Shown: positions 24,039-41,060, numbered from the stretch's first letter. The stretch: DNA of 41,060 bases from a virus (IMGVR_UViG_3300028393_004369:1-41060), one strand, 5' to 3'. Numbers and translations are program-made. Notes: a model not told the origin generated them from the sequence alone.

Positions 24039-26928
24039 TAAGTTCATGCATGGCTCTTCTCTTCTTATTGGCGATAACACTATCCCTGGTGTTCAACTTC
24101 CAAAACAATTAAAAGAACATGCTCAAATAATTTTGAATGTTTGTAGAGATTGGGGCTTGGATTTTTATCCAACTGTAGTGCAACTTCTTACCTACGATGA
24201 AATTTCCGAAGTAGCAGCTTATGGTGGTTTTCCAGTACGATATCCACATTGGTCATTTGGCATGCAATATGAAGAATTGCAGCGTGGATATGAAAATCAA
24301 ATGCATAAGATATATGAAATGGTAATCAATTGCTGTGAACTTAATGCTCCAGTTTTGACTAAGCGTGGTACAATTATAGCTGGAGATGTGAAGGTGGGCG
24401 ATCAAGTTATTGTTGGTAATGAAACTAGGAATGTTGTTGCGATAAAGAGACAAAACGCTTCTAAAACTAAGAAAATTTGTTTGAAAGATGGCCAAACATT
24501 AGTATGTACGCCAAATCACAAATGGCGTGTTCTTTCTAATAATGGTTTAATCTGGAAAAAAGCATCGGATGTTGTATCTGGTGATATTTTTGTAGGAACT
24601 GATTCATATGAAAGTAATTGGGATGCACCAAGAATTGATTGGTCATCCGAACAAGTTTTTGAATCAACAAGGCCCAACATTAGGCATTGTATTAAAGAAA
24701 TTTATCCACCGAATCATATTACGATAGAATTGGCGGAACTTCTTGGAATTTTGGTTGGAGATGGGTCGATAGGAGTAAAGTCTGCTGAAAATATGTTAAC
24801 CGTTGCTGTTGGTAAAAAACACAGGACATATGCAGAACATGTTGTAGATTTATTTAAAAAGGTATTTGGAGTTGTTGCAGAGATTTACGAAAAACCAAAT
24901 TGTTTCAATGTAACATTATGCTCAAAAAACGCAGTTGATTTTGTTAATTCGATTGGTTTAAAGAAAGGTAAAACATTTAAGGAAAAAATAATTCCAGATA
25001 TTATTTGGAAGTCTCCTCCTGCCTATAGATGTGCTTTTATTCGTGGTTTGTTCGATACTGATGGCTATGTAGCTAACCATGTTGGTTTTAGTTGTTATAA
25101 TAAGAAATTGGCAGATGATGTTCAGATTATGCTTTCGGAAATGGGAATTCTTTCTAATTTAAAAACATTGAAAAATGGCAAGGGTAAAAAAGGTGATCAA
25201 AAATATATTAATGTTGTTAAAATTAAGGGAATTTGGGCTGAAAATAAATTTTACAATAGAATAGGTTTTGTGCTTAACTATAAGCAAGAATTACTTAAAA
25301 AATTACTTGATAGAAAATTTTGTCGTAGTTCTGGAATGGAGTTGCCTTACATTCAACGACAATTGATTATGTGGGCAAAAAGTGTAGGAATCACAACATA
25401 TAACAACCATAGTCTTGGTTATTCAATTAAAATGTTCGAGAAACAAAAAGTTGGGATTAATTCTTTTTCTTCATTTGTACAAAGAGCAGAAAATCAAGGA
25501 TTAAGTGTTCCAAATGAAATTAAAGATATTATTTCAAATCCTTTATTTGTTGTTGAGCATGTTGTTGATGGAGATGAGATCGAAACTGTTGATATTGCAT
25601 TGGATCATGATTCTCATGATTTTATTGCATATGGATTGATTACCCATAATACATCACCTTGCTACATATATTGCTTAGATAGTAATACTCTATTGGATCA
25701 TTTGACAGTTATTGCTCATGCTACTGGTCATAATGATTTCTTTAAAAACAATATTCATTTTTCTGCCACTGATACAAACATGTTGAATAACATGGCGAAT
25801 CATGCAAGTCGTATAAGAAAATATATGGCTAGATGGGGTAAAGAAAAGGTTACTGAATTTCTTGATTATTTGCTTCGCATCGACAATCTAATTGATGGTG
25901 CATCAGCTTGGCATCAAAAAGTAATTAAAGATAAAAACATTATTGATAAAAAAAATTATCGTTTTCCAAAGCGACTAAAAGTTGGCAATGATAGACTTTA
26001 TATGGATTCCTATATCAATACCAAAGATTTCAAAGACAGAGAGAATGAAAAGGTTAAAGATAAAGATTTGGCAGAAGAACTTGGATTTTTTATTGAACCA
26101 GTTAAAGATGTTTTTGGATTCTTGCGTGATAATGCTCCACTGAAGCCATGGCAGCAAGATATCATGTCTATGATCTATGAGGAATCAATTTATTTTTTCC
26201 CACAGAGACAAACTAAGGTATTAAACGAGGGCTGGGCTTCTATGACCGACCATGTCATTATGGCGGAACAGGGTTATGTTTCATTAGGCCAGAAAACACA
26301 TGATGATGGAATCATAGAATATGCTGCACATAAGATGGGTGTTCTTGGAGGAAAATATAGCACTAATCCATATAAGCTAGGCTATAATCTTCTTTCAGAC
26401 ATAAGAAAAAGATGGGATAAAGGTCAATTTGGAACTGAATGGGATGATTGCACAAATTCAACCAAAAAAGATAATTGGGATACAAATGTAAAATTAGGAA
26501 AAGAAAAAATATTTGAAGTTAGAAAGTATTACGATGATCTGACTTTGATACATGAATTTTTTACTGAGGATTTTTGCAGAGAGCAAGAATATTTTGAATA
26601 TAAAAAATATCCAAGTGGTGATACAATCTTGGAAAGTCACGAATATAAAAAAATAAAAAAACTCCTTATGGCAAGACATGTTAATGGTGGATTGCCAGAT
26701 ATTAGATTGACCGAGCCAAATTATCGTGGTAAAGGTTATCTTATGTTGGAGCATAATTATGAGGGAAGAACACTATACGAGCCTTATGTTCGTGATGTTC
26801 TTTGTTCTTTAAGGTTTATTTGGCAAAACGATGTGTTTCTATCGACTAAAGGTCATGATGGGAGCGAAATCGTTTTTGAGTGTTTTGACAATGATCCTTT
26901 AAATGTAAGAATACGAGCAAAAAGGTAA
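24028..26928 (+). CDS. spoVR: SpoVR-family protein interrupted by an intein (966 aa precursor)
   Basis: The flanks are SpoVR/YcgB: N-extein 1-101 (WGLDFYPTVVQLLTYDEISEVAAYGGFPVRYPHWSFGM... KIYEMVIN) and C-extein 542-966 (TSPCYIYCLDSNT... HATGHNDFFKNN... LNEGWASMTDHVIM...). Joined they give about 526 aa, the usual length (E. coli YcgB is 510). The insert is at MVIN|TSPCY, one of the most conserved segments of SpoVR, where bacteria read VINTNP-x-Y. Cys102 and the terminal His-Asn541 mark the intein. The start overlaps DUF444; GGAG lies 8 bases upstream. SpoVR's biochemical role remains poorly known; it acts with PrkA and DUF444 genetically. Confidence 0.96.
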   Translation: MSSNKFMHGSSLLIGDNTIPGVQLPKQLKEHAQIILNVCRDWGLDFYPTVVQLLTYDEISEVAAYGGFPVRYPHWSFGMQYEELQRGYENQMHKIYEMVINCCELNAPVLTKRGTIIAGDVKVGDQVIVGNETRNVVAIKRQNASKTKKICLKDGQTLVCTPNHKWRVLSNNGLIWKKASDVVSGDIFVGTDSYESNWDAPRIDWSSEQVFESTRPNIRHCIKEIYPPNHITIELAELLGILVGDGSIGVKSAENMLTVAVGKKHRTYAEHVVDLFKKVFGVVAEIYEKPNCFNVTLCSKNAVDFVNSIGLKKGKTFKEKIIPDIIWKSPPAYRCAFIRGLFDTDGYVANHVGFSCYNKKLADDVQIMLSEMGILSNLKTLKNGKGKKGDQKYINVVKIKGIWAENKFYNRIGFVLNYKQELLKKLLDRKFCRSSGMELPYIQRQLIMWAKSVGITTYNNHSLGYSIKMFEKQKVGINSFSSFVQRAENQGLSVPNEIKDIISNPLFVVEHVVDGDEIETVDIALDHDSHDFIAYGLITHNTSPCYIYCLDSNTLLDHLTVIAHATGHNDFFKNNIHFSATDTNMLNNMANHASRIRKYMARWGKEKVTEFLDYLLRIDNLIDGASAWHQKVIKDKNIIDKKNYRFPKRLKVGNDRLYMDSYINTKDFKDRENEKVKDKDLAEELGFFIEPVKDVFGFLRDNAPLKPWQQDIMSMIYEESIYFFPQRQTKVLNEGWASMTDHVIMAEQGYVSLGQKTHDDGIIEYAAHKMGVLGGKYSTNPYKLGYNLLSDIRKRWDKGQFGTEWDDCTNSTKKDNWDTNVKLGKEKIFEVRKYYDDLTLIHEFFTEDFCREQEYFEYKKYPSGDTILESHEYKKIKKLLMARHVNGGLPDIRLTEPNYRGKGYLMLEHNYEGRTLYEPYVRDVLCSLRFIWQNDVFLSTKGHDGSEIVFECFDNDPLNVRIRAKR
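24331..25650 (+). mobile_element. Intein with LAGLIDADG homing endonuclease inside spoVR (440 aa)
   Basis: Splicing block A: Cys102 followed by CELNAPVLTKRGTIIAGDVK and VGDQV. Block B: LVCTPNHKWRVL (T-x-x-H). Two LAGLIDADG motifs: LAELLGILVGDGSI and CAFIRGLFDTDGYV, both with the acidic metal-binding residue, so the endonuclease is probably active. Blocks F and G: ETVDIALDHDSHDFIAYGLITHN, ending His-Asn, followed by Thr542 as the +1 nucleophile. All residues needed for splicing are present. An extra Cys103 lies next to the N-terminal Cys. The coordinates give 1320 nt, in frame with the host gene. Its homing target would be an intein-less spoVR at MVIN|TSP. Confidence 0.95.
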
Positions 26929-27633: not shown

Positions 27634-29020
27634 ATGACATTTATGAAAGGAGTTCCAATGAAGGTGGAGATTGTCGGTTTCGAACATCTCCACCTTCATT
27701 AGTTATTCCGATTTCTCCGTTTTAGATGGGTTTGGTACTTGTGAGGAATATTCACTCAGAGCTACCCAAATCAATCAAAACTTTTTAACTATTAGTGATC
27801 ATGGTATGTTGGGTGCTGTTCCAAGACAAATAAAAGCTTGTGAGAAAATTTGTGATAAGTTTGGTAAAAACAAACTTTCTCCTATATTCGCAGCAGAAAT
27901 ATATGTTAATAGGTTGCAGCCATCAAGTGATTCTTTGCAAGACATGCAAAATTTCTCTAAAAACTTAAACGAAATAGAATTAAAGGAATTGAGAGCTAGT
28001 CCACACCTTCTTGCGATTGCACATAGCGAAATAGGTTATAAAAATCTAGTAAGACTTACATCTTGGGGATGGACAAAAGGATTTTATAGAAAGCCAAGAG
28101 TAAATTACGAACAACTTGAGAAACATAAAGAAGGTTTGTTTTTTACTAGTTGTTGTTATAACAGCGAAGTTGGTAGAGCATTTGATTCTGGTGGTGAAGA
28201 AGCTGCATTTCAAATGATCGAAAGATACATTGAGATGTTTGGTAGAGATAATTATTTCCTTGAAATTATGCTTTTAGATTTTGTCAAACAAAAGCCTTAT
28301 GATGCATTTATCATCAAGGCTTATGAAAAGTATAAATTAAAAATAATTCTTACAAATGATTGTCATTATTGTCGAAAGGAAGATAGTCACTTTCAAAGAC
28401 TTATGTTGATGGTACAGACAAATAGAACAATTCAAGAAATTCAAAAGGCAATGAAAGAAGATGCCATGAAAGACTTTTTTGAATTGCAAGATGCCAACTT
28501 ATGGATGAAGTCAGAGGAAGAGCTTAACGAAAAATGGGCTAAAGATTATAGTGATGTTATTCCATATGAAATTTTTTGTGAAGCTAAAAAGAATACAGTA
28601 GAGATTTGCAGAATGGCAAAAGGAGTTGAACTTGATAGAAGTTTGAAATTACCAATTTTGCCTGATTGTGACGAAAAACTTAAAGATTTAGTCATACAAG
28701 GATTCAAACAGAGAAACTTGCCTAAGACCAAAGAATATAAAGACAGAATAATTGAAGAATTGAGCCTTATAACTCGAAAAGGATTTAGTACATATTTTCT
28801 TATTCAAAAAATGATGACTGATGAGGCAAGAAAGTGGTGCAAAGAGAATATAGGTGGTGATGGAACTCAAGCTGTAGGGCCAGGCAGGGGAAGTGCTTGT
28901 GGTTCTTTAATCTGCTATTGTCTTGGAATTACAGATGTTGATCCAGTATTTGAAGGTCTTTTGTTTAGTCGATTTATGTCTGAGGCTAGAGGTGGTAGAT
29001 CTATTTGTTTTGATTTGTAA
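27634..29020 (+). CDS. dnaE: DNA polymerase III alpha, N-terminal half (PHP and start of polymerase domain), with apparent +1 frameshift
   Basis: Frame 1 from ATG 27634 or 27658 gives MKVEIVGFEHLHLH then UAG (27700-27702). Skipping one base (T27700) continues in the next frame as SYSDFSVLDGFGTCEEY, restoring the PHP N-terminus HLHxHS-x-Y-S-x-LDG. The rest follows DnaE: ISDHGMLGAVPRQIKACEK, KIILTNDCHYCRKEDSHFQ, VGPGRGSACGSLICYCLGI-TDVDP, ending LLFSRFMSEARGGRSICFDL. The protein stops just before the PDxDxD catalytic motif, which is in the gene at 38344. About 453 residues if read through the shift from 27658. Each candidate ATG has a Shine-Dalgarno (AAAGGA, AAGGAG). Confidence 0.88.
27657..27700 (+). 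promoter_or_regulatory. Perfect 15-bp inverted repeat from the dnaE-N start codon to the frameshift site
   Basis: AATGAAGGTGGAGAT (27657-27671) and ATCTCCACCTTCATT (27686-27700) pair perfectly around a 14-base loop. The 5' arm contains the ATG at 27658; the 3' arm ends on T27700, the first base of the UAG and the base that must be skipped. Folded RNA would hide the start codon and sit at the shift site. The same inverted sequence could also be an assembly or amplification artefact. Confidence 0.75.
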
Positions 29021-29071
29021 AAAATATTTTTAAAAATCAAAAAAATAAAAATATAAAACTATATTAATTTT

Positions 29072-29491
29072 ATGGAAAATACAATCACTGTAGATCTTAG
29101 CACGATGCCAGATCTCATTTATATGATCATCAAGGATGAAACCTTATTCGCTGAACTAAAGGCGGAATTCCCAGATATTCTTGCCGACCTAACAACACTA
29201 AAGACCAATCCGAACTGTTCATGCAGGGGTAAGGTTGGTAAGTTCTTTTCAGATAAAGTAACTGCTGATCCGAATATCTTGGAAAAGTATTACAAGGACA
29301 AAGCTGCTATAGTTAAAGAACTTGAAGATATTAAGTTAAGAAGAGTCAACAATTCAGTTGTAGGCAAAGTATTCAAGGTTCAACTTGGTGATGAAGCTTG
29401 GGCTAATTTCAACAAGATTATTTCTGGAAAAACCTTCAGAAGTTTCTCTGTTGTTAGAGAATTTGACTATATGTGGGTTTATTTCCTATGA
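29072..29491 (+). CDS. Hypothetical protein (139 aa)
   Basis: Soluble, with a helical N-terminal two-thirds and a C-terminal beta part (VVGKVFKVQLGDEAWANFNKI; KTFRSFSVVREFDYMWVYFL). A lone pair CSC precedes RGKVGKF. No known family is recognised. No Shine-Dalgarno; TATATT at 29060-29065 places a predicted transcription start exactly on the ATG. It overlaps the membrane protein gene by ATGA. Confidence 0.6.
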   Translation: MENTITVDLSTMPDLIYMIIKDETLFAELKAEFPDILADLTTLKTNPNCSCRGKVGKFFSDKVTADPNILEKYYKDKAAIVKELEDIKLRRVNNSVVGKVFKVQLGDEAWANFNKIISGKTFRSFSVVREFDYMWVYFL

Positions 29492-29775
29492 TATTTTTGA
29501 TTTATTTAGTCACATGTCTCGGTGTCGCTTATGCTTGGTCCGACACCGATGTTGCAAGACCATTTAGAAATTTGGTAGCTAAGATACCATATGTTAATGT
29601 TCCAATGCTTTGTCATGAATGCAGCAGTTTTTGGTTTTCGTTGGGAATCTCATTTTTACTCAATCCAGTAGGCGAACTATATGTTCCATTTGCTGGAAAT
29701 CTCATTTCTGCCTTTTGCGGTTTTTTTGCAAATCTTTTATTTGTTCGTAACCGATGGGTATCCTACAAAGAATAG
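29488..29775 (+). CDS. Integral membrane protein with CHECSSFW motif (95 aa, DUF1360-like)
   Basis: The ATG at 29488 overlaps the previous stop as ATGA; an in-frame ATG at 29473 is less likely. It has a first transmembrane helix (MIFLIYLVTCLGVAYAW), an amphipathic loop, then MLCHECSSFWFSLGISFLL, and a third hydrophobic segment (NLISAFCGFFANLLF). The C-x-x-C-x-x-F-W motif before a helix is typical of DUF1360-type small phage and bacterial membrane proteins. Function unknown. A strong terminator follows. Confidence 0.65.
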   Translation: MIFLIYLVTCLGVAYAWSDTDVARPFRNLVAKIPYVNVPMLCHECSSFWFSLGISFLLNPVGELYVPFAGNLISAFCGFFANLLFVRNRWVSYKE

Positions 29776-29794
29776 AAAAAATTCTAAATTAAAG

Positions 29795-29829
29795 AAAAAA
29801 ACAGGCTTGAAAATCAAGCCTGTTTTTTT
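29795..29829 (+). terminator. Strong rho-independent terminator (16-bp stem)
   Basis: AAAAAAACAGGCTTGA (29795-29810), AAA loop, TCAAGCCTGTTTTTTT (29814-29829): a perfect stem with a GC-containing core and a T7 tract on the plus strand. A-tract symmetry means it could work on both strands. It ends the operon containing 29072-29775. Confidence 0.92.
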
Positions 29830-29888
29830 GATATTACAAGTGTTTCCGCAAGTCTCATATTTTTTTGCTTATATTTATTTATCTCACA

Positions 29889-29916
29889 AATAAAACATAA
29901 AGAATGATGTTTTATT
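29889..29916 (-). terminator. AT-rich hairpin at the end of the Cys-rich gene
   Basis: AATAAAACAT (29889-29898) and ATGTTTTATT (29907-29916) form a 10-bp stem that includes the minus-strand stop codon. G+C is very low, so as a terminator it would be weak. Confidence 0.35.
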
Positions 29917-32900
29917 ATAGTGGAACGCAAAAACCATTAACACATTGCTTAGATTCACCACAATAATTATCGCAATTGCCACAATTATTGTTGTCTGTTA
30001 GTCGATGTGCCTTACTTAGACATTGACCAGTACTACAACATTGATATCCGTCTTCGGTTGCTGCACCTTCGGGTGGGCAAACATTTTCTCCCCAACAATT
30101 TAAACAGGTATCAACATAACTCAACGGTTTGCAAAAACCATCGCAACACTTGTAATTACTAGGGCAACAAATGTCTCGGCAACATGTAACACCTTCGTCA
30201 CAACAAACAGTTCCACAACCTACACCGTTATTATCGCAACACTTACCATTGCTGCATCTTTGGGTTTGTGTACATGCATTTGGGCAATCTCCACATTGCC
30301 ACCTAATGCATGTTCCGCTACAGCATTTTTCATCGGAGTAACAAGATGGATTGCAATTTGCACACTTGCCATTATTGCAAAATTCCCCAGCAGCACAACA
30401 CACTCCTTCACAACAAACATTACCCTCTAGACAACATGTTTTATTATCACAACAGTAATTCTTACGACCACTAAGATCACCACCACCGCAGCACCTGCCA
30501 TTACAACAAATATCACCAGACTTGCAACATTCGCCCATCGGTGGAGTTGGGTTATCAGGCGAAGGAGTTATCTGACTCTGACTGGAACAACAGGTTTGTC
30601 CATCAGCACATGCTGGGTCACAATCTACACATTGACCATTAGGACCACATAATTGCCCAGAAGGACAGCATGTCTTATGGCCTTCTGCACCGCAGCAAAC
30701 TGCGCAGCATTCTAGATTACAACATACATCAAGTCCAGTACAAGGAGGAGTACAACCAGTACATACACCAGCAACACATTTTTCACCTGCTGCTGTGTCA
30801 CATTTTTTATTGCAAAGGCCACAATTGTCATTATCGGTTTGTGTTTCTTTACACGCTCCAGCACAACATTTTCCACCTGTACAAGCAGCACCGCAACCAG
30901 TACAATCTGTATCGGTTCCAAGAGTGGTACACCCAGTAGTACAACAAACTTGACCAGCGGTACATACTACTCCGCAACCCTTGCAGTTTGATGTTGTTGT
31001 AATATCTGTACAAACTTTATTGCAACACTTCTGTGTTCCTGTACAAGCATCACCACAACCAGAACAATTTGTGTCGGTTCCAACGGCAGTACACACCTCA
31101 TCGCAACAATCTTGACCTATAGAACAACACACTTCTTGACCGGGCAAACCGCAACAAACTATTTCAGCAGAAGCACATGCATTTGGGCAATCGCCACATT
31201 TCCACCTAACACATGTTCCAGAACAGCATGTCTCGTCTGGATAGCATACTGGACTGCATGTTGCACAACTTCCGTTTTCGCAAAATTCACCAGCAGCACA
31301 ACAAGTATTACCACAGCATATTCTTCCAGCATCGCAACATGATCCTCCACAGCAGGTTTGTCCAGCAGTACAGGGTGGCTCGCATGTGGCACATACTCCA
31401 TCAACACATGATTGCCCCGATGGACAACATGCGTCAGCACAACAAATTGCACAGCATGTCGTTCCGCCTTCGCAGCATGATTCGCCAGATGCACATGGAG
31501 GTGTACATCCTGTGCAAGCTCCATTTTTGCAAGTTTCACCAGCAGGACAAGGGGGTGCATCACAACTACCGCAATGGGCGTTGTTGGTTTGCATGTCTAC
31601 ACATGTAGATGAACAACAGGTCAATCCATTGCCACAAGGAGGATCGCAACTGCTTCCATCTCCACTACAACCAGCAGCACAGTTTTCTGCTCCGATGTAC
31701 TCTCCGATTTTTGCTTGTGTTTCAGGGTTAAACGATGCTTTTGGTATACAATAAGTTGCCATATTTTGTCCTTCTATGTTATTTACACAAAAATATATAT
31801 CTCCAACACACGCTAATTTGTCGTCTACGCAAGAAATTCTATCATCTGCACAATATGTGTAATCTGGTTCGTGTCCGCAAGTTCCATAAAATGCAATTCC
31901 AGCTTCTTCGTGTAGAACCCAAGCCCCTCCTGCGGCTTCAAAATAACAAGATCCATCACAACTTACCGTGTTGCCAACGCATGAAGCCACGAAAGCGACA
32001 TCATGTGGCCCAGGTTGTGGTGGCATTCCTTGTTCATATCCCTGACATTCGCAGTGTGGTTCAGCACAGTTTCCCAAGAAACATTTCGGAACTTTAAATG
32101 TGTCATTGGGAGGTTCTTGACATACTCGTCCGCAAAAACCGCAGTTTTCTGGATCAGTTTTTAGGTTCTTGCACTTGCCATTGCAGCACTGCCACAGATT
32201 GGTCTGGTTGATCATTTGCGGACACTCTATTCCGCAATCACCACAGTTAAACATGGTATTCAAATCTAATACGCAAGATCCATTGCAGCACTTGCCAGCA
32301 CAAGGTATGTTGCAACCACCACAGTTGTTTTCGTCAGACAATATGTCGATGCACTGATTGTTGCAGCAAGCAGTTCCAGCCTCTAGACATGGGGGAAAGC
32401 ATGGAACGCAAACACGATCAATGCACTGATCTGAGTTAGGACATGTAAATCCGCATTGTCCACAGTTGTTTCTGTCGGTATTTTCGTTTACGCAAATTCC
32501 ATTGCAGCAGGTTTCCCCAATGCCAGTCTGGCACTCGTGTGCGCATGACCCGCAATTATAATTGTCTGTGTTACGATTTTTGCAAAAACCATTACAACAG
32601 ACTTCGGGAAATGTACATACATTTGTACAATTTCCGCAATTCAAATCTCCTGTAAGTGTGTTTACGCAGTTTCCATTACAACAAGTGTCTCCAGCAGCAG
32701 ATCCGCAATCTCTTCCGCAATCTCCGCAATTACGAACATCTGTAAGTATGTTTTTACAAACATGATTGCAGCATTTTTGATTAGCACCACAATCAGGAAT
32801 ACAGTTTTTACAGGGAGAAGAAACTTTTTCAAGATCGGCTGTACCCGGTCGAAATGGCTCGTTTATTGGACATTTGCAGCTTGGGCATGGCGTTTCGTTC

Positions 32901-34231
32901 CAAAATGGAGTACAGTCAAAACTGTAAGTCGTTCCTGAACAGGCTGGCTCTGGAGGATCTACTGGTACTGGACAACCAACCCCACCCCTGTCGCAATTGC
33001 TTATCATTTCCCATGTTCCTCCTGCCCAACCTGTAACTGGATCTAGAACAGGGAAAATTGTACATGGATACTCTGCTCCAAAATCCATGTGATGACATGG
33101 GCAGTCGAAAGTAGATCCAAAGCATGGTCCGTTAGTAACTGCAATCCAAAAATCGCCACAACTGCCCATGTAAATTCCCGATGATGAAAATGTGCTACAG
33201 TTATTTGGATATTGACAGGCAGCAATTTCCTCGTAATGACCTGTGCATGTAGGAAACATCGGATCGCCTTGAGGAGGTCCAGTTGGAACCCATCTTATGG
33301 TCGCATTTCCTGAGCATATTTTATACCCATTTGGGTTATTGTACATGAATGTGCATTTTGGTTGATTCCATGTGTATGAGCATTCTTCAGCCGTACAAGG
33401 GTCCATGCAAACACCATCCTTGCAAACCTCTCCTACAACGCAACTTCTGTCGCAATCGCCACAGTTCAAGCGATCATCGCCAACTACATTTTTGCACACA
33501 CCGGAACAGCATATGAATCCGACAGGACAAACATTCGGACATGATCCGCAATGACTTTCATCTAGTTGTGTATTGACGCAATCACCAGAACAGCATGTTT
33601 CTTCGGCTGCACAAGGATGGTCGCATCTTCCGCAATGATCATGATTGTTTGTTACATCAATGCAAGTAAGTGTGTCGCCAACGAAACAACAATTCGCTGT
33701 TGTACAGCAATTACCGTTGCAGCAAGTTGGTGTTGCTTCGGGGCAAACATTTCCGCAATGATCGCAATTATTGCTGTCTTCATATATGTTTTTGCATTCG
33801 CCAGCACAGCAGTCTTGATCTGGACCGCAAGCTATGGGGCAACCTCCACAATGGTCATGATTCGTTTGTGTATCTACGCAAACATTGTCGCAGCATGTCT
33901 GTGATGGTTCGCATGCAACACCACCACAATTACAGCAGGTTCCAGTGCATTCAACTTGAACGATACCTTCGCAGCACCCGACCATGGTTGCTGGTGGGCT
34001 TCCATTATAATCTGGCCAACATGGAGGGGGGTTTGTCGGTAAATAGGGAGGTGGAGAAGATGAGCATCCCGCTGGGCAAGGAACAGTCAGAACCCATTGG
34101 ACATTGTCAAGTTGTCCTCCACACCTTCTTGGGTCCCAGACTTCAGCTTCGTAAGAGGCAGAGTATCCACAAACTTTATCGGCAAGTGCGAAAACTATAT
34201 TCCATTTCTCCACCATTTTTTCGTCTGTCAT
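29915..34231 (-). CDS. Giant cysteine-repeat protein (1438 aa), Stig1/myxobacterial-type Cys modules
   Basis: Well over 15 modules of the form CCNGxC-x-N-x-x-TDxxNCGxCGxxC cover most of the chain (for example ENCGFCGRVC, RNNCGQCGFTC, NDNCGLCNKKC, DNNNCGNCDNYC). Modules of this kind (like plant Stig1 or the Cys repeats of myxobacterial surface proteins) are disulfide-rich. At about residues 280-430 a domain with fewer cysteines (CTFMYNNPNGYKICSGNATI; CHHMDFGAEYPC) interrupts them. The first 45 residues (KWNIVFALADKVCGYSASYEA) are not a signal peptide. The gene appears richer in G+C than its neighbours, which may indicate separate origin. A virion-exposed fibre or adhesin role is plausible; no proof. 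It overlaps the CapK gene by 4 nt. Confidence 0.85.
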   Translation of the reverse strand: MTDEKMVEKWNIVFALADKVCGYSASYEAEVWDPRRCGGQLDNVQWVLTVPCPAGCSSSPPPYLPTNPPPCWPDYNGSPPATMVGCCEGIVQVECTGTCCNCGGVACEPSQTCCDNVCVDTQTNHDHCGGCPIACGPDQDCCAGECKNIYEDSNNCDHCGNVCPEATPTCCNGNCCTTANCCFVGDTLTCIDVTNNHDHCGRCDHPCAAEETCCSGDCVNTQLDESHCGSCPNVCPVGFICCSGVCKNVVGDDRLNCGDCDRSCVVGEVCKDGVCMDPCTAEECSYTWNQPKCTFMYNNPNGYKICSGNATIRWVPTGPPQGDPMFPTCTGHYEEIAACQYPNNCSTFSSSGIYMGSCGDFWIAVTNGPCFGSTFDCPCHHMDFGAEYPCTIFPVLDPVTGWAGGTWEMISNCDRGGVGCPVPVDPPEPACSGTTYSFDCTPFWNETPCPSCKCPINEPFRPGTADLEKVSSPCKNCIPDCGANQKCCNHVCKNILTDVRNCGDCGRDCGSAAGDTCCNGNCVNTLTGDLNCGNCTNVCTFPEVCCNGFCKNRNTDNYNCGSCAHECQTGIGETCCNGICVNENTDRNNCGQCGFTCPNSDQCIDRVCVPCFPPCLEAGTACCNNQCIDILSDENNCGGCNIPCAGKCCNGSCVLDLNTMFNCGDCGIECPQMINQTNLWQCCNGKCKNLKTDPENCGFCGRVCQEPPNDTFKVPKCFLGNCAEPHCECQGYEQGMPPQPGPHDVAFVASCVGNTVSCDGSCYFEAAGGAWVLHEEAGIAFYGTCGHEPDYTYCADDRISCVDDKLACVGDIYFCVNNIEGQNMATYCIPKASFNPETQAKIGEYIGAENCAAGCSGDGSSCDPPCGNGLTCCSSTCVDMQTNNAHCGSCDAPPCPAGETCKNGACTGCTPPCASGESCCEGGTTCCAICCADACCPSGQSCVDGVCATCEPPCTAGQTCCGGSCCDAGRICCGNTCCAAGEFCENGSCATCSPVCYPDETCCSGTCVRWKCGDCPNACASAEIVCCGLPGQEVCCSIGQDCCDEVCTAVGTDTNCSGCGDACTGTQKCCNKVCTDITTTSNCKGCGVVCTAGQVCCTTGCTTLGTDTDCTGCGAACTGGKCCAGACKETQTDNDNCGLCNKKCDTAAGEKCVAGVCTGCTPPCTGLDVCCNLECCAVCCGAEGHKTCCPSGQLCGPNGQCVDCDPACADGQTCCSSQSQITPSPDNPTPPMGECCKSGDICCNGRCCGGGDLSGRKNYCCDNKTCCLEGNVCCEGVCCAAGEFCNNGKCANCNPSCYSDEKCCSGTCIRWQCGDCPNACTQTQRCSNGKCCDNNGVGCGTVCCDEGVTCCRDICCPSNYKCCDGFCKPLSYVDTCLNCWGENVCPPEGAATEDGYQCCSTGQCLSKAHRLTDNNNCGNCDNYCGESKQCVNGFCVPL

Positions 34232-35508
34232 TTTTCCTCTACATTAACAGATAGAGTTCTATTTTGAATTTTTTGCGATGCCAATTGGTCTGGAACAACC
34301 TTGAACTTCAACTTGTGCGATTTAAATATTTCGGCAACTTCATCTTTTTTGATAGGATCTATTTCTTTGTTTGACACGATTTCTATGAAGTCGATTCCGC
34401 AATTTACTTGTCTTATCTCCGTTAAACCAGTCTCCATGAGTTTTTTCTTATACTCGTTAATCGAATGCCCTTTTATGGCAAATGGTCGATTTTCTAAGAA
34501 TTTAAAATCTCTGTACAACCTTCCGCACGAACATCTTTGGTATTTATCTTTTATCTTGCACCTATCGCCATTCCAGAATTTGACAAAAGGACAAGCCAAG
34601 GAGAAGTAATCGGTTGATATAAGTCTTTCCTCATTTTCGACACACCAAGAAAGGTTGTCCATCAAGTGATAGTTTTTGTCTTTACATGTGAAGAAGGAAG
34701 CTCCTCCATCCCAACACCTCATGTGGTCGCATATATGTGACACATAGTTGTTTTCGAGAAGGAATTTAGCATCTTCATCCAGAATTTTTTCATTGCTATT
34801 GCTCAATAAGTTGCATAGTTTACCTTTATATTTTTCTTTTTTTATATAAGAGCATATTTTTTTTATTTGTGGGCCTGGGGCAAAAATTACATTCATTTTT
34901 TTTAAATTTAAATATCTGAATAGGTATTTCTGAAACACTTCTTCTTTTTCTTTTTGTAGTTTCGTGTTTGCATAATGAACCATTGCGGTTCTTTTTGTTC
35001 CGTGATGTTCCATGAAGTTTTTGCTTTTCGATGTATTGTTTATGTATCTTGAGCCACTTCCGAACGAAGAATTAAAGAAGTACATGATGTCTGGATTTTG
35101 CGGTATTTCATATTCATCCAGAATCAGATCATAGTGGTTTTCTCCTTCGATGAAATAAAGGAATGGTTCCCATCGTAAGTATTCGAATCCCTCGCCAGTG
35201 GTGCTTCCGCTACTTTTCATTGGCATGGATTCATTTTCTAAGGATTTTACATACCACTTGTCTTTGTCTATGAGATCATTTTTACTCAAAAAATTGAGGT
35301 TTTTTTTGTTTGCGTAAGCTTTAGAATTTTTTTCTGCCCAAGATGATATGTTTCTTTTTAGTATTTCTATTGTTTCGACAACGAGTTCTTCATCGTGCAG
35401 GAGCAAGTCTTTGCATATTGGTTTGTAGTCGTAAGGAATTTGCGTGGAAGGATCGGTGAAGTTTTTCCACTTATGGACGAACTGTTTTATTTCCTGTGTA
35501 TTCCGCAT
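34228..35508 (-). CDS. Adenylate-forming enzyme, CapK/PaaK-like (426 aa)
   Basis: KSSGSTTGEGFEYLRW (about residues 98-113) is the P-loop-like motif of the AMP-forming acyl-CoA ligase family, and the C-terminal half contains CDHMRCWDGGASFF, RLISTDYFSLACPFVKFWNGDRC (PaaK/CapK: LITTL-x-N-x-x-P-L-I-R-Y-x-T-G-D) and QRCSCGR (zinc-knuckle-like). This is closest to CapK/PaaK-type proteins of polysaccharide clusters. Expected reaction: ATP-dependent activation of a carboxylate, possibly to decorate a glycan. It overlaps the neighbouring GT2 by 22 nt and the Cys-rich gene by 4 nt, so the three are one minus-strand operon. Confidence 0.8.
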   Translation of the reverse strand: MRNTQEIKQFVHKWKNFTDPSTQIPYDYKPICKDLLLHDEELVVETIEILKRNISSWAEKNSKAYANKKNLNFLSKNDLIDKDKWYVKSLENESMPMKSSGSTTGEGFEYLRWEPFLYFIEGENHYDLILDEYEIPQNPDIMYFFNSSFGSGSRYINNTSKSKNFMEHHGTKRTAMVHYANTKLQKEKEEVFQKYLFRYLNLKKMNVIFAPGPQIKKICSYIKKEKYKGKLCNLLSNSNEKILDEDAKFLLENNYVSHICDHMRCWDGGASFFTCKDKNYHLMDNLSWCVENEERLISTDYFSLACPFVKFWNGDRCKIKDKYQRCSCGRLYRDFKFLENRPFAIKGHSINEYKKKLMETGLTEIRQVNCGIDFIEIVSNKEIDPIKKDEVAEIFKSHKLKFKVVPDQLASQKIQNRTLSVNVEEK

Positions 35509-36188
35509 CCATCCCTTATAAAGAAATTAAGTGTTACCTTGTTGGTGTGACTCCATTTCACATCGGGAATCCATCTTGATATTAAATCCCAATCATTGCA
35601 TTTTTTTACATAACGCCATCCGCCATGTTTATCTATTAGATATCTAGTGTGCATGATCTCAGAAGTATCTATATATCCAGCTTTTGGAATAGAATTGTGA
35701 ATTCTTTCTCCTATTATATTTTTATTAGAATCATACAATCTAGTGCCAGTGTAGGCTAAGTTATAATCACCAGAAGTAATTGTTTTATAAAGTGATTCTA
35801 TATGATCTTTTTCGTACCAATTATCATCGTCAAGATATGCGATATAATTATGATCTGTGTTCATAATGGCAAAATTTCTAGGACCCCAACCAGCACCACT
35901 TAGATGAATTGGCAAAATATTAAATTTAAATCTTTTGTCGTTTTTTGCAATTTTTTTAAAAAACTTTTTTGTTAATTTGCAGTTTTCACATTCAATACAT
36001 GTTTTATTTGTTGTATCTATTGTGCAAGATTCACAGCATCCATCTTTCACAATATAACAATCAAAATTTTTATAAGTTTGTGATTTTATAGAAATGGTAG
36101 ATCTTTCTAGCCATTCTATTGGGGAGTGGTATGTTGGCATGCATATTAAGATTTTATCTTTTTCGCATTTTCTCAGATGACCCCACAT
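35487..36188 (-). CDS. GT2 glycosyltransferase with Cys insertion (233 aa)
   Basis: Family-2 pattern: ILICMPTYHSPIEWLERSTISIKSQTY (N-terminal strand and helix), CYIVKDGC, and YIAYLDDDNWYEKDHIESLY (D-x-D with DDD). GAGWGPRNFAIM is the usual region before it. Unusual: a short insertion after VKDG with CCESC...CIECENC, several Cys that may bind zinc. A C-terminal helical part ends FFIRDGCGIHRK. It is the first gene of the operon CapK-like/Cys-rich; a terminator-like hairpin lies right upstream and the acidic gene further back. Confidence 0.82.
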   Translation of the reverse strand: MWGHLRKCEKDKILICMPTYHSPIEWLERSTISIKSQTYKNFDCYIVKDGCCESCTIDTTNKTCIECENCKLTKKFFKKIAKNDKRFKFNILPIHLSGAGWGPRNFAIMNTDHNYIAYLDDDNWYEKDHIESLYKTITSGDYNLAYTGTRLYDSNKNIIGERIHNSIPKAGYIDTSEIMHTRYLIDKHGGWRYVKKCNDWDLISRWIPDVKWSHTNKVTLNFFIRDGCGIHRK

Positions 36189-36190
36189 AC

Positions 36191-36216
36191 AAAAACCTTC
36201 TTAGTAGAAGGTTTTT
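36191..36216 (-). terminator. Terminator-like hairpin after the acidic-repeat gene
   Basis: AAAAACCTTC (36191-36200), loop TTAGTA, GAAGGTTTTT (36207-36216): a perfect 10-bp stem flanked by A/T tracts, usable on both strands. It separates the gene at 36222 from the GT2 gene on the same strand. With only 2 bases to the GT2 start codon, the GT2 transcript must begin inside it or read through. Confidence 0.75.
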
Positions 36217-36221
36217 GTTGG

Positions 36222-37178
36222 TTAAAATTCATCAGATGGTTCTGGTCGTGGCCCCATTTTTCTAAGGGCATGAGAAGCATGGCCTTTGCCAAACGGATCA
36301 GATAATGCAGAATCGTCATCTTTGTGAGAATCATCATCATCTGACATTTCATCATCATCTGACATATCATCTTCATCATCGTCTGACATATCATCTTCAT
36401 CATCATCTGACATATCATCATCATCATCATCTGACATATCATCTTCATCATCATCTGACATATCATCTTCATCATCTGACATATCATTTTCTTCTTCGTC
36501 ACTATCATCATCTGACATATCTGGTTCGTATTCATCATTTGACATATCATCTTCATTATCTGACGACATATAGCTCATTTCATTAATTGCTTTTTGAAAA
36601 AGAGTATTTTTTTTAATTTCTTCTACGATCGCCTTGATACCAGTTCCATGTTTGCAAGCTTCTGTAATAAATTTTCCTAATAATTTGTGGCGTTTTAATT
36701 CAAAAATAAGTTGTTGAATATTTTTAGAATTATTTTCGCATAAATTTACTGTTTCTTTGATTTGTCCGATTGAAGTTCCACTTGTTTCATTTCGCATCTG
36801 ACTTACAAATTTTGCACCAGAAAGGTTGCGAGTTTTATTGAGCCATTCTGTTACGCTTGAAGAATCAAGCCAAGATTTAACTTCATCGCCACCATAGTTG
36901 CTCTTTTTTACATTTGTGGTTGGTTCATACTTAAGATCTGAATCTCCTTCATGAGCAAATCCCTTTTCTGCTTTATTGGGATTTTTAGCATCAGTACCAG
37001 CTTTATATGGCTTGTTAGTAGATTTAGAATCTTTGGCACCACCAGCATTTGGGTCTTTTTTGGTTTTTTCTGGAGATGTTGGGGTTTCTCCTTCATATCC
37101 AGCAACCACTTTAACTTCTGGCTTTTCAACCATTTTGCCAGTATCGTTTAAATATTCTTGAAAGCTCTTGAATGACAT
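36222..37178 (-). CDS. Acidic-repeat protein with FKSFQEYL N-terminal tag (318 aa)
   Basis: Begins MSFKSFQEYLNDTGKMVEK, a member of the tag group. Residues about 20-105 are Lys/Asn/Pro/Gly-rich and probably disordered. About 105-205 is a helical, mostly globular part (VKSWLDSSSVTEWLNKTRNL, IKETVNLCENNSKNIQQLIF, HKLLGKFITEACKHG). From about 205 to 290 the chain is a DMSDDDED repeat (around ten units) of nearly pure acid, followed by a short polar end. The acid-rich tail and the tag suggest a capsid scaffold or core type protein, similar in kind to the acidic core proteins of T4, but this is inference only. GGAG precedes the ATG. Confidence 0.75.
   Translation of the reverse strand: MSFKSFQEYLNDTGKMVEKPEVKVVAGYEGETPTSPEKTKKDPNAGGAKDSKSTNKPYKAGTDAKNPNKAEKGFAHEGDSDLKYEPTTNVKKSNYGGDEVKSWLDSSSVTEWLNKTRNLSGAKFVSQMRNETSGTSIGQIKETVNLCENNSKNIQQLIFELKRHKLLGKFITEACKHGTGIKAIVEEIKKNTLFQKAINEMSYMSSDNEDDMSNDEYEPDMSDDDSDEEENDMSDDEDDMSDDDEDDMSDDDDDDMSDDDEDDMSDDDEDDMSDDDEMSDDDDSHKDDDSALSDPFGKGHASHALRKMGPRPEPSDEF
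36330..36545 (-). repeat. Acidic MSDD repeat (about 24-bp units)
   Basis: On the plus strand, ATCATCTGACATATCATCTT and near copies (with CATCATCATC extensions) recur about ten times, coding D-D-M-S-D-D on the minus strand. Units vary between 18 and 27 bp in multiples of 3, keeping the frame. Confidence 0.85.
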
Positions 37179-37334
37179 ATCATCTCCATAGTATAAATTT
37201 TTGCAAAATACGACTGTTTGTATATAGGCTTAAATGAGTTGAAATTATTTCAATTTTACTTATTGATTTTTTCAAAAATATTTGTTAGCCTAATATCTTG
37301 TTGTTTGGTTTTCAAATGTGGTTAAGGAGTTATT

Positions 37335-37838
37335 ATGAGCAATTATGTTGTTTATGCTATTTTAGCATGTTCTGTTCTTACAAATGGTTATCAAATATAC
37401 AGAATTGATAACATGAAAAGCGTTCAAGATTTGTTGATGCAAAAAGATTTGTTAACACAAAGTGGATTTAACGAAATTCTTTATGGTCATGTCAACAGTG
37501 TGAAAAATGAAAATATGGAGCTTGCTAAAAATCAAGGAAAGATCGAAGGTATCATTAGTGTGGTGAATAATATTAAGCCAGAAAGCAATGATATTTCTGC
37601 GATTTGGCATAGCGGTTATTATCGTGGTATGGATCAAGTTGAATATGTAAGATTGGCTTCTTACGAAGACGGATACCATCGTGCTTGTGAAGATATTTCT
37701 TGTCCTGTTGGCTCTGGTACAAATGTAAACAAGAAGTTAATGTTGGATAAAATTCCAAGTGTTAATCCAACTAAGCCAACTGAAGAAAAGCCTTCTAAGC
37801 CAACTGAAGAAAAGCCTTCTAAGCCAACTTCTAAATAA
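37335..37838 (+). CDS. Membrane-anchored protein with Pro/Lys/Glu tail (167 aa)
   Basis: An N-terminal transmembrane segment (SNYVVYAILACSVLTNGYQIY), a helical middle, a conserved-looking IWHSGYYRGMDQVEYVRLASYEDGYHRACEDISC and a C-terminal direct repeat KPTEEKPS (twice, 24-bp DNA units) that looks like a spacer. AAGGAG lies 6 bases before the ATG. The YYRGM/YEDGYHRA segment resembles FSDGYETAKNE of 3635-4012. A terminator follows. Function unknown. Confidence 0.65.
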   Translation: MSNYVVYAILACSVLTNGYQIYRIDNMKSVQDLLMQKDLLTQSGFNEILYGHVNSVKNENMELAKNQGKIEGIISVVNNIKPESNDISAIWHSGYYRGMDQVEYVRLASYEDGYHRACEDISCPVGSGTNVNKKLMLDKIPSVNPTKPTEEKPSKPTEEKPSKPTSK

Positions 37839-37867
37839 GCATTTAGATTAAATATCAAGCAGATAAT

Positions 37868-37901
37868 ATGGAATATCAATTAAATTTGATATTCCATTTT
37901 T
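37868..37901 (+). terminator. Rho-independent terminator
   Basis: ATGGAATATCAA (37868-37879), loop TTAAAT, TTGATATTCCAT (37886-37897), then TTTT. A perfect 12-bp stem, ending transcription of the membrane-anchored gene. Confidence 0.85.
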
Positions 37902-38272
37902 CATTTTGTGTCTTTGTATCTAATTAGCAATTCACCTAAGACTTCAATTTTCCCGACAAGCTTTTGAAATTTTGTTGGATCAATATTTTCAATTTTATTC
38001 ATATAAGAATGTAATTCAGAACATAAGCTTTCATATTCTTTTTTTACTTTTTTAAAATCAAATTTTCCTTTTGAAGCTTCCTTGTAGTATGGAAGTTTTA
38101 CAATAAAGTGGCTATATGTAAGAAGTGCTATACCACCTTTTTCCTTGGCATTATTGGCTATTTTTTCTGCACCATCATGTCTTTTTTTAGCGAACTCATC
38201 TAAAGTAATTTCAGTTTTTTGTTCGACAAATAAACCAGACAATTTTAAAATTTCTTCAATTTCGTTGTTCAT
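37901..38272 (-). CDS. Hypothetical protein (123 aa)
   Basis: Soluble and helical, with an acidic N-terminus (MNNEIEEILKLSGLFVEQ), a central NAKEKGGIALLTYSHFIVKLPYYKEASKGKFD, and a C-terminal helix. The ALLTY-x-H-F-x-VKLPYY segment is familiar from small conserved phage proteins but I cannot name it. It stands alone on the minus strand between the membrane gene and the polymerase gene. Confidence 0.65.
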   Translation of the reverse strand: MNNEIEEILKLSGLFVEQKTEITLDEFAKKRHDGAEKIANNAKEKGGIALLTYSHFIVKLPYYKEASKGKFDFKKVKKEYESLCSELHSYMNKIENIDPTKFQKLVGKIEVLGELLIRYKDTK

Positions 38273-38309
38273 TTTTTTCCTTTTGCGTTGTGCTATATGT
38301 AGTGTGTTG

Positions 38310-38318
38310 TGATATAAT
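38310..38318 (+). promoter_or_regulatory. Extended -10 promoter of dnaE C-terminal half
   Basis: TGATATAAT (TGn plus TATAAT at 38313-38318), with a poor -35 TTGTGC at 38288 (19-bp spacer). ATG at 38344 follows after AAGGTG. It means the C-terminal half has its own promoter, independent of the N-terminal half. Confidence 0.5.
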
Positions 38319-38343
38319 AATTTTTCATTTTAAGGTGATTAAT

Positions 38344-41060
38344 ATGTTAACGACAGTTCAAAAAATCGAACAGCTTTTGTGGCATATCTTTGAAAGAAGA
38401 CAATTATGTGAAAAGCATAAAAAAAGACTTGAGTGGGAAATCAAAGAAATTGATATTCAAGGAAAGTCAGAATATTTTTTGAATTTATTTAAAGAAAAGA
38501 AAAAATTCCCCAAGAATGAAAACAACACCTTAGTTCCATATATTTTGGGCATAGTTGATGATTTTGATATCAATAAAGATCCCAAGTTTGTTCAAGGCGA
38601 CATGCCAGATATTGATGTTGATTATCTTTCTGAAGTTAGAGATTATTTGAAAAACAAGTGGGCTTCTGAAACATTTGGCGAGGAATATGTTTGCAATATT
38701 GGTAATTATACAACATTTGGAATGAAGAGTGCTTTAATTGATATGGCTAGAGTTCATGGAGAGGCAAGAGGAGAAATACTTGAGCTTACAAAAGAGCTTG
38801 AGGCAAAAGATGATGAGGGAAAGCCATTGACTTGGGATGTTGCCCTATCACAATATCCAAAATTGAAAGAGTATTGTGAAAAGTATCCAGATGTATCAAA
38901 CGCAGCCAAAAGACTTATAAATAGAAATAGAGGTATGGGTCAACATGCTGGTGGTTTGATTATAAGCTCTATTCCACTACACGATCTTGTTCCATTGGTT
39001 AAGAGAAAAGACAATCCACAAGCATCTGCATGGGTAGAAGGCCTTAATGGTCAAGATTTACAACCAGTAGGATTAGTCAAGTTTGATTTACTTGTAATTT
39101 CTAATTTGATGCAAATCAGTAAATGTTGTGAGTTGGTAAAAAAAAGAAAGTTAATTGATAGTATTTGTGCTATGCCAAATCAATCTGATTGGACAGATAT
39201 CATCAAATGGCGTAATGATTCTAAAGCCTTAGAGATGGCAAACGAAGGTGATTTAAAATGTATTTTTCAATTTGATTCGGAAGGTATTAGAAAATTAGTT
39301 AGGTCTGGTGGAGTTGATTCATTTGAGGATTTGGTTGCATACACTGCTCTTTATAGGCCTGGCCCTTTGAACATGAAAATGCATGAAAGATATATTGAGA
39401 GGAAGAAGGGCAACGAAGAATATAGTTTGCATCCTCTTGTTGAACCTATTCTTGGAAAAACTTATGGAGTTATGGTTTTTCAAGAACAAATTATGAAAAT
39501 TTTGAATGTCGTTGGAGAAATACCATTCAGAGATTGTGAAATTGTTAGAAAAGCTATTTCAAAAAAGAAAGCGGATGCCTTTAAGAAATATGAAATTATG
39601 TTCATAGAGAAAGGTCAAAAAAATCTTAACATATCTGAAGAAGAGGCAATCAATTTATTTGATCAAATAAAATCATTCGCAGAATACGGATTCAACCTAA
39701 GTCATTCCGTAGCTTATACTTATGTCTCTTCTCGTCTATTATATTTAAAGGCTCATTATCCTCACGAGTTTTATGCTGCTGTTTTAAGTTGTGAAACATT
39801 AAGCGAAAAGATTAAAGACTATAAAATGGAAGCAAAAAGACACAACATAGAGATGCACAAGATTGACATCAATAAGTCTAAGAAGAATTTTGAGCTTATT
39901 GATGATGTTATTTATTATGGCTTGTCAAATATAAAGGGTGTTGGAGAAGCACCAGCGGAAAAAATTGTTTCTGGTCAACCATATAATGGATTTGGAGATT
40001 TTCTTTTTAAGTTTGGTACAGACGCTAGTGTTATAAAATGCTTGATTGGATTGAGGTGTTTTAATGAATCTGATCCAATCACATTGTGGAAATTTTACGA
40101 ACACTATAAAGAATGTGCGAGAAAGATAGAAGATAAAAAGAAAAGATTTGCTGTTAGTATGTCGCAATACGAAGAAGAATTTAAAGAGCTTTTTCCTGAC
40201 GATACAAGATTGTTGAATAGTTTTCATGGAGCTAATCCATTTGATGGTGATGATTGGAAAAAATATGATGTAAATGAAATGGTAGAATCAGAAAGAAAAT
40301 TTGAGTGCGAAAAGGGTCAGGGTGAACCTAAATTAGAAATTACTTATGTTTCAATTGAAGGAACTGAAGATTTTATTGAAGTTCAAAAAACAAGATATTA
40401 TAAAATCACAAAGACGAATAAAGTTTTCAATAGGTTGAAAGAACTTAAAAAGCTTTGGGTCAGAAATTTAAAAAGCATCGAAAGACTTGAAGATTCTAAA
40501 AAATTATTGTTACCTACTATCGAAGCATTTAATCCTAATGATTATGAAATTGATCCAAATTTTGAAAAAGAACTTAAAAGCATTGTGGCTTGTGAAATGA
40601 AGTATTATGGATTTGCTTGGACTCATAATTTGGAAAAGAGCAAGGATTTTAAAGGGTACACATTCGAAGCATTTAAAGAAAACATCGGTGTTATTTGTCC
40701 GGTTGAAGTAGAAATAGTTGTTAAAAAAATGTGTAAAAGCAAAAAAGGAACAACTTATTGTCAATTGGAAGTAGAAGATGCTCTTGGAGAAAAAAATAAA
40801 ATAAACATTTGGGAAGACGATCTTAAAAGATGGGGTTCAGAATTAGAACAAGGTAACTTAGTTAGATTAAGATTACAACCACCAGATAAAGGATTCCCAA
40901 CATATACATTAGAGCAAAATAAAAAATTGCCTAACCAAAAATGGGTCTATAAGTTTCCAACGAAAGAAACTGATTATAGGGTATATTTGATGAAACCTGC
41001 TGTGGCCGAAGAAGATAAATATTTATCTGAAGAAGAAATTTTAGAACAGTTTTCAAATTA
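38344..41060 (+). CDS. dnaE: DNA polymerase III alpha, C-terminal catalytic half (partial at window end)
   Basis: An open frame from ATG 38344 to the window's right end (at least 905 aa). After an 85-residue N-terminal extension with no obvious counterpart, it carries PDIDVDY (catalytic Asp89 and Asp91), NRGMGQHAGGLII, VGLVKFDLLVI (third catalytic Asp248), FQFDSEGIRKLVRSGG, ALYRPGPLN, GVMVFQEQIMKI, FAEYGFNLSHSVAY, IKGVGEAPAEKI (helix-hairpin-helix) and, near the end, an OB-fold-like segment (KKGTTYCQLEVEDALGEKNKINI). It lacks the PHP domain and GRGSA loop, which are in 27634-29020. FAEYGFN-SHS, the cyanobacterial split-intein site, is intact and intein-free here. The two proteins together would rebuild a single polymerase. 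Confidence 0.95.
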   Translation, partial: MLTTVQKIEQLLWHIFERRQLCEKHKKRLEWEIKEIDIQGKSEYFLNLFKEKKKFPKNENNTLVPYILGIVDDFDINKDPKFVQGDMPDIDVDYLSEVRDYLKNKWASETFGEEYVCNIGNYTTFGMKSALIDMARVHGEARGEILELTKELEAKDDEGKPLTWDVALSQYPKLKEYCEKYPDVSNAAKRLINRNRGMGQHAGGLIISSIPLHDLVPLVKRKDNPQASAWVEGLNGQDLQPVGLVKFDLLVISNLMQISKCCELVKKRKLIDSICAMPNQSDWTDIIKWRNDSKALEMANEGDLKCIFQFDSEGIRKLVRSGGVDSFEDLVAYTALYRPGPLNMKMHERYIERKKGNEEYSLHPLVEPILGKTYGVMVFQEQIMKILNVVGEIPFRDCEIVRKAISKKKADAFKKYEIMFIEKGQKNLNISEEEAINLFDQIKSFAEYGFNLSHSVAYTYVSSRLLYLKAHYPHEFYAAVLSCETLSEKIKDYKMEAKRHNIEMHKIDINKSKKNFELIDDVIYYGLSNIKGVGEAPAEKIVSGQPYNGFGDFLFKFGTDASVIKCLIGLRCFNESDPITLWKFYEHYKECARKIEDKKKRFAVSMSQYEEEFKELFPDDTRLLNSFHGANPFDGDDWKKYDVNEMVESERKFECEKGQGEPKLEITYVSIEGTEDFIEVQKTRYYKITKTNKVFNRLKELKKLWVRNLKSIERLEDSKKLLLPTIEAFNPNDYEIDPNFEKELKSIVACEMKYYGFAWTHNLEKSKDFKGYTFEAFKENIGVICPVEVEIVVKKMCKSKKGTTYCQLEVEDALGEKNKINIWEDDLKRWGSELEQGNLVRLRLQPPDKGFPTYTLEQNKKLPNQKWVYKFPTKETDYRVYLMKPAVAEEDKYLSEEEILEQFSN

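Follow-up and report, generated by a model that had tools for sequence, protein, structure and literature searches.

In cyanobacteria, dnaE is found as two genes, and their products are joined by split-intein protein splicing. In the group 2.2 jumbo phages, a minimal DNA polymerase III (Pol III) alpha is split between the nucleoside triphosphate (NTP)-binding and Mg-binding subdomains, has no PHP or other Pol III domains and occurs together with a family B polymerase (Iyer et al., 2021, PMC7824862). The MIJ3 family B polymerase gene is fractured with a split intein (PMC6892783), and other split-intein fractured genes were described by Dassa (2009), as far as that work is quoted in PMC6892783. 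A different kind of interruption is known from T4 gene 60, in which the ribosome bypasses 50 nucleotides (nt) after the codons GGA-UAG; a 5' stem-loop is thought to be the motor, take-off and landing codons are matched, the gap perhaps comes from a group I intron and the gene was split by a homing endonuclease (reviewed in PMC5009743). The byps of Magnusiomyces capitatus mitochondria are short inserts with landing codons that match at 2/3 positions, and they are said to be independent of the mRNA context (PMC5009743). Here we analyzed the viral record IMGVR_UViG_3300028393_004369:1-41060, one strand of 41,060 nt, which is called the window below and always means this whole stretch. It encodes a Pol III alpha as two genes, dnaE-N (the N-half) and dnaE-C (the C-half), and the start of dnaE-N is interrupted. 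All of the evidence is computational. The best explanation of the whole, to which we give a rough probability of 0.72, is that the only C-family replicase of this phage consists of two polypeptides which would assemble non-covalently, the first of them being completed by ribosome bypassing.

As a gene arrangement the split is certain. Pfam finds two PF07733 matches in the window, family positions 2-98 at 28676-28990 and positions 100-259 at 38599-39093, and the family is cut cleanly between the halves; the other Pol III alpha domains are also present (PF02811, 2e-29; PF17657, 3e-40; PF14579, 3e-12). The N-half (27658-29020) contains the PHP domain and the GRGS loop, and its open reading frame (ORF) stops at 29020, shortly past GPGRGSACGSL...LLFSRFMSEARGGRSICFDL (this end is also given as GRGSACGSL...FSRFMSEARGGRSICFDL). 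The C-half (38344-41060) contains PDIDVDY, KFD, the fingers and HHH according to Pfam and an OB fold by structural match, and it starts at ATG 38344 with the ribosome site AAGGTGAT and the extended -10 TGATATAAT at 38310-38318. The initial annotation had placed the break between the GRGS loop and the PDxDxD motif and had given the second gene its own ATG, Shine-Dalgarno and extended -10; both statements are confirmed. The GRGS loop and the PDxDxD and KFD Asp residues are all present and invariant, but they are spread over two chains, encoded 9.3 kb apart instead of in a single polypeptide, and the break maps to about E. coli residue 390-395. The clean cut of PF07733 bears out the claim that the palm is divided, with the GS loop on one polypeptide and the catalytic Asp residues on the other. 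The reading frame of the C-half is still open at the end of the record, with ~8 residues missing, and the complete protein of 913 amino acids (aa) was read from a 99% identical relative (L003). Misassembly as a cause of the split is ruled out by this relative (L003/L009), an independent 165-kb contig with the same arrangement and an identical 9.3 kb spacing. No intein or Rfam intron was found at the main break and no intein family matches either half in the window, as had been stated for split inteins. The cut is not as bare as it was first described: its location stands, whereas the N-half continues into a short and variable tail and the start of the C-half is palm-related, carrying a degenerate copy of a palm segment.

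Searches of IMG/VR gave ~60 distinct N-half relatives, which are large freshwater phages. The break, whose conservation in related phages had been proposed as a check, is common to every close relative found (~60 distinct phages) except four intact ones. In every locus in which both motifs are readable the halves are separate, on the same strand and with N upstream of C, at 0.9-9.3 kb; in two further relatives they lie ~13 kb apart, by contig coordinates. The intact exceptions are LR756511 and three IMG/VR contigs, each with one gene of 1177-1190 aa, and in the two intact relatives that were inspected the sequence across the seam is FSRFLSKxRxDxPDxDVDF. A full-length dnaE elsewhere in the genome would have spoken against the split; in the 15 larger contigs (38-343 kb) that were screened, exactly two PF07733 matches were found in each and no full-length or further dnaE. 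No family B polymerase was matched in an overlapping set of 15 records, and 14 of these have one short family A polymerase. The functional seam between NTP-binding and Mg-binding subdomains is already known from jumbo phages, and the present, PHP-bearing form is new: unlike the polymerase of group 2.2, it has PHP, fingers, HHH and OB, a palm-entry remnant on the C-half and intact syntenic relatives, and no family B polymerase was matched in 15 contigs. It shares the two genes with the cyanobacterial DnaE, yet the split site is another one and no intein lies at the break. It likewise resembles the split-intein fractured genes as a phage polymerase in pieces, although here the main break has no intein. 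Split-intein breaks do exist further along dnaE-C in L007 and L023. Inteins were also seen at further sites in both halves (L007, L023, L024, L027, L035, L055, and L059; some inferred from in-frame inserts), and L007, L016, L023, and L024 have an intein that is itself divided over ~1 kb, which leaves the polymerase in three pieces.

Both halves look functional. No variation occurs in the GRGS residues and their flanks among 26 N-halves, or in the catalytic Asp motifs among 18 C-halves; pN/pS, the ratio of nonsynonymous to synonymous change, is 0.09-0.35 for both halves of the window against relatives, by rough counts with saturated synonymous sites, and by this measure both are under purifying selection. 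An AlphaFold 2 (AF2) model of the N-half, made from the relative L013, has a mean predicted local distance difference test score (pLDDT) of 77.5 and matches Pol III alpha chains of the DnaE type at Z 24.7-29.5 (27.4 to E. coli 2hnh, 29.5 to 2hpi), covering E. coli residues 1 to about 394. The C-half model (L003; mean pLDDT 74) matches residues 388-908 of E. coli alpha (2hnh) with Z 21.4. These data suggest that the N-half, with PHP and the GRGS loop, and the C-half, with all catalytic Asp residues, fingers, HHH and OB, would together complete one palm active site, and we consider their assembly into it quite likely. Such a polymerase, with the triphosphate loop and the catalytic Asp residues on separate gene products, probes how far the palm domain is divisible, and the intact syntenic relatives offer a before-and-after comparison for the split.

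The question of how the gene became split can be approached through these relatives. The intact gene order is SpoVR, reverse-strand gene, transfer-messenger RNA (tmRNA; found in 3/4), AAA ATPase, dnaE, d212, d380, and d382, and the split order is SpoVR, dnaE-N, reverse-strand gene, tmRNA, AAA, dnaE-C, d212, d380, and d382, with some genes undetected in some loci. The comparison indicates that dnaE-C occupies the place of the intact gene and that dnaE-N was copied or moved upstream. Residues 3-47 of the C-half align with N-half residues 335-380, the segment before GRGS (hhalign probability 92%, E 6e-7, in a single comparison), and NNLLVPYLLGI...DFDI of the C-half resembles SLICYCLGITDVDP, which follows GRGS in the N-half. 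Two C-halves even match the Pfam model from its position 3 onwards, and the GS loop position is occupied by an invariant NxNN. Because the C-half keeps this degenerate copy, duplication with complementary decay is likely: an intact dnaE would have been duplicated or moved, the upstream copy would have kept the N-terminal part, and the original locus would have kept the C-terminal part and a decayed palm-entry remnant.

The second unusual feature of this locus is the start of dnaE-N. A start at TTG 27671 had been annotated, which is very probably wrong, since the conserved N-terminus MKVEIVGFEHLHLH is encoded from ATG 27658 in another frame. When all frames upstream of 27671 are read, ATG 27658 and MKVEIVGFEHLHLH are followed by TAG and then, in a different frame, by SDFSVLDGFG. 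Compared to uninterrupted relatives such as L013 there is a 7-nt insert, TAGTTAT, and the two parts together (14+437) give 451 aa, exactly the length of the L013 protein. Such interruptions were counted in 61 distinct split N-halves. Type A (16/61) is an insert of 5, 6, 7 or 8 nt (16 distinct complete genes) that starts with a stop codon directly past HLHLH; type B (7/61) is an insert of 40-47 nt with an internal hairpin past HLH[ST]D; and type C (3/61) is UAA plus a Leu codon ahead of LDG. A group I intron (RF00028) of 223-227 nt lies near the LDG codons in two (L098:5767-5992 and L056:9769-9996), adjoining the bypass-like gap site, 32 are uninterrupted, and one (L131:5954-6010) lacks a single base in the FSLLDG motif, a frame break without insert next to which an HNH gene abuts. 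Two successive candidate gaps are found in L148 (3325-3445), the first of 8 nt, following HLHLH, and the second of 46 nt, with the stop codon inside a long hairpin. A contig of a Neisseriaceae metagenome-assembled genome (MAG) that is probably phage (L228, 8001-8042) carries its stop gap, UGACUA (6 nt), one codon closer to the start, behind a hairpin that ends at the take-off codon. Gap length and sequence differ even among close relatives (L045 8 nt, L046 5 nt, L049 6 nt, L052 8 nt, L047 none), a sign of rapid turnover. In several interrupted relatives and one intact relative an HNH gene (phrog_559) lies directly next to the start of dnaE-N, which is not the case in the window. These endonucleases are recognized by PHROGs and not by Pfam, and for one of them a solved structure was searched for and none found.

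Programmed bypassing like that of T4 gene 60 is the best reading of this interruption, and a likely one from the sequence comparisons. The 42 nt before type A gaps fold with -18 to -25 kcal/mol and z-scores of -5.8 to -9.2 against synonymous recoding (15 regions, the window and its near-copy counted apart), and 28 uninterrupted regions have a mean z of -0.2. All 12 stem pairs are kept in 13/13 distinct sequences, with 3 pairs changed on both sides, and shuffles and slid controls fall short of this covariation score. In 26 of the 27 cases the take-off anticodon can pair at ≥2 positions with the triplet just ahead of the resume codon, compared to 55/358 other gap triplets (15%) and ~24% expected from composition. 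Moving 3' from the take-off codon, a ribosome would meet no earlier triplet of this kind in 15/17 type A cases; for the 20 type A and C cases together the expected number is ~1.6. When 1853 ORFs were compared with all loci, frame breaks of this kind turned up essentially only at the dnaE-N site; in this all-against-all scan for bypass elements in other genes, the remaining frame-breaking inserts look like intergenic or gene-fusion artefacts. In the proposed hop, the ribosome would translate MKVEIVGFEHLHLH and reach UAG while tRNA-His occupies the P site, the hairpin of the codons just read would refold behind it and pull the mRNA through, tRNA-His would re-pair with the first triplet that matches at 2/3 positions (UAU, 7 nt on), and decoding would resume at UCC to give one protein of 451 aa. 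We infer both this hopping and a role of the HNH endonucleases. Recoding of the stop codon was considered and excluded; genes in the window end in TAA, TGA and TAG, and most gaps shift the frame anyway.

Several observations weigh against the explanation as a whole. The C-half model falls below pLDDT 50 in the part of the palm that surrounds the Asp residues (82-125 and 194-250), and the degenerate palm entry of this half, with its invariant NxNN, could stand in for the GS loop. In the N-half tree the four intact relatives branch from within the split ones; the base of this tree is unresolved and split monophyly is not rejected (approximately unbiased test, p 0.107), so one or several splits are possible. 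The landing triplet GTC in L045 breaks the pairing rule, and the bypass events share ancestry and are not phylogenetically independent, which makes their nominal significance too high.

The first of these points lead to the alternative that survives best, although we regard it as unlikely, namely that the C-half is a self-sufficient polymerase with NxNN in the place of GRGS, and that the N-half works as a PHP nuclease of its own which no longer contributes to catalysis. The degenerate palm entry with N58, N60, and N61 invariant would fit such a polymerase, yet a pure nuclease would not need the invariant GRGS and flanks of the 26 N-halves, and AF2 does not confidently fold the C-half palm alone, which is weak evidence. 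Less probable still is that ordinary +1/-1 frameshifting or stop readthrough joins the frames without a hop. One +1 slip could bridge the 7-nt gap of the window, but gaps of 5, 6, 7, 8, and 40-47 nt would demand +1, -1 and readthrough at one site, and tRNA-His finds at most one matching position in the triplets offset by +1 or +2, against ≥2 in the predicted landing triplets. About as improbable, or slightly more so, is initiation downstream of the gap, which would leave an N-half without HLHLH and make the 14 codons a leader peptide with a regulatory hairpin. TTG 27671 is indeed in frame in the window and the hairpin spans the start region; however, most of the 5-, 6- and 8-nt cases offer no ATG, GTG or TTG in the downstream frame ahead of the resume codon, and uninterrupted relatives have the 14-codon peptide as their normal N-terminus, with changes in the loop codons that are mainly silent or conservative. 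That the interruption is an error of sequencing or assembly, or the mark of a dying gene, is very improbable, for although all records are metagenomic, 26 IMG/VR contigs match the DNA pattern, the separately assembled Neisseriaceae MAG contig has its own version of it and the remainder of the gene is under strong purifying selection.

Like T4 gene 60, the dnaE-N candidates have a stop right after the take-off codon, a 5' stem-loop and related take-off and landing codons in a split gene, with HNH endonucleases adjoining in relatives and a link to group I introns. They differ in that the gap is not 50 nt long (7 nt in the window, 5-8 nt in type A, 40-47 nt in seven relatives), the stem ends exactly at the take-off codon, the landing match is mostly 2/3, take-off would occur only 14 codons from the start and the gene is dnaE. 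The byps of M. capitatus share the short inserts and 2/3 landing, whereas here the gaps lie in phage genes and a strong covarying hairpin is present. No description of bypassing in dnaE was found in the literature searched, which mostly did not cover subscription papers. We think it probable that the dnaE-N genes form a natural family of at least 27 programmed bypass cases, long-sought counterparts of T4 gene 60 in a replicase whose active site is divided over two gene products. The family would comprise several architectures around one spot (a short gap behind a hairpin; a gap of 40-47 nt that contains a hairpin; a stop hop of 6 nt), often near HNH genes and within a few codons of the group I intron site. 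If the candidates are true, T4 gene 60 turns from a near-unique phage curiosity into a comparative system, in which identical codons are followed by gaps of many lengths, the hairpins covary, the product can be predicted from a simple landing rule, and close relatives have an intron at the site or no interruption at all. In such a system the proposed origin of bypassing, as gene defence against homing endonucleases and possibly from decayed introns, becomes directly testable.

Table 1. Positions of the dnaE-N and dnaE-C elements, and of one gene between them, in the window.
Feature	Position	Strand	Basis
Shine-Dalgarno-like AAAGGAG of the N-half gene	27646..27652	+	sequence
Perfect hairpin with 15-bp stem, start codon to take-off codon; candidate 5' stem-loop	27657..27700	+	free energy -25.8 kcal/mol, z -6.2; covariation
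dnaE-N coding part 1, MKVEIVGFEHLHLH, first PHP metal-binding motif	27658..27699	+	same 14 codons uninterrupted in L013
Candidate take-off codon CAU (His14)	27697..27699	+	
Candidate 7-nt coding gap TAGTTAT with in-frame UAG; landing triplet UAU at 27704-27706	27700..27706	+	
dnaE-N coding part 2: remainder of the PHP domain, palm entry, GRGS loop and a short tail past FSRFMSEARGGR	27707..29020	+	ORF, Pfam
GPGRGSACGSL phosphate-binding loop	28877..28909	+	R406 G407 S408 invariant in 26 relatives
Probably the gene that relatives have in reverse orientation between the halves, and LR756511 upstream of its intact dnaE	36222..37178	-	own N-terminal sequence, not a search match
Extended -10 TGATATAAT of the C-half gene	38310..38318	+	sequence
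dnaE-C: catalytic palm part, fingers, HHH, OB fold; 905/913 aa, record ends inside gene	38344..41060	+	
dnaE-C N-terminal extension: degenerate copy of the palm segment from before and around GRGS, with invariant NxNN in place of the GS loop	38344..38595	+	
PDIDVDY catalytic motif, invariant Asp	38605..38625	+	

Some of the neighboring genes should also be mentioned. A tmRNA gene lies between the halves in many relatives (L056:16721-17096, L022:12501-12853, L037:13786-14142, L040:13703-14059, and others) and upstream of the intact dnaE in 3/4 intact relatives, for example in LR756511 (L062:3692-4044); none was found in the window. In Bacillus phage vB_BauM_KLEB27-3 (L208), dnaE is annotated as two coding sequences with an HNH gene between them. 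Upstream of dnaE-N in the window, a SpoVR-like gene (24028..26928) is interrupted by a LAGLIDADG intein. Between the halves, a 1438-aa cysteine-rich repeat protein is encoded on the reverse strand (29915..34231), and the gene at 36222..37178 contains a long DDEDDMSDDD acidic repeat tract.

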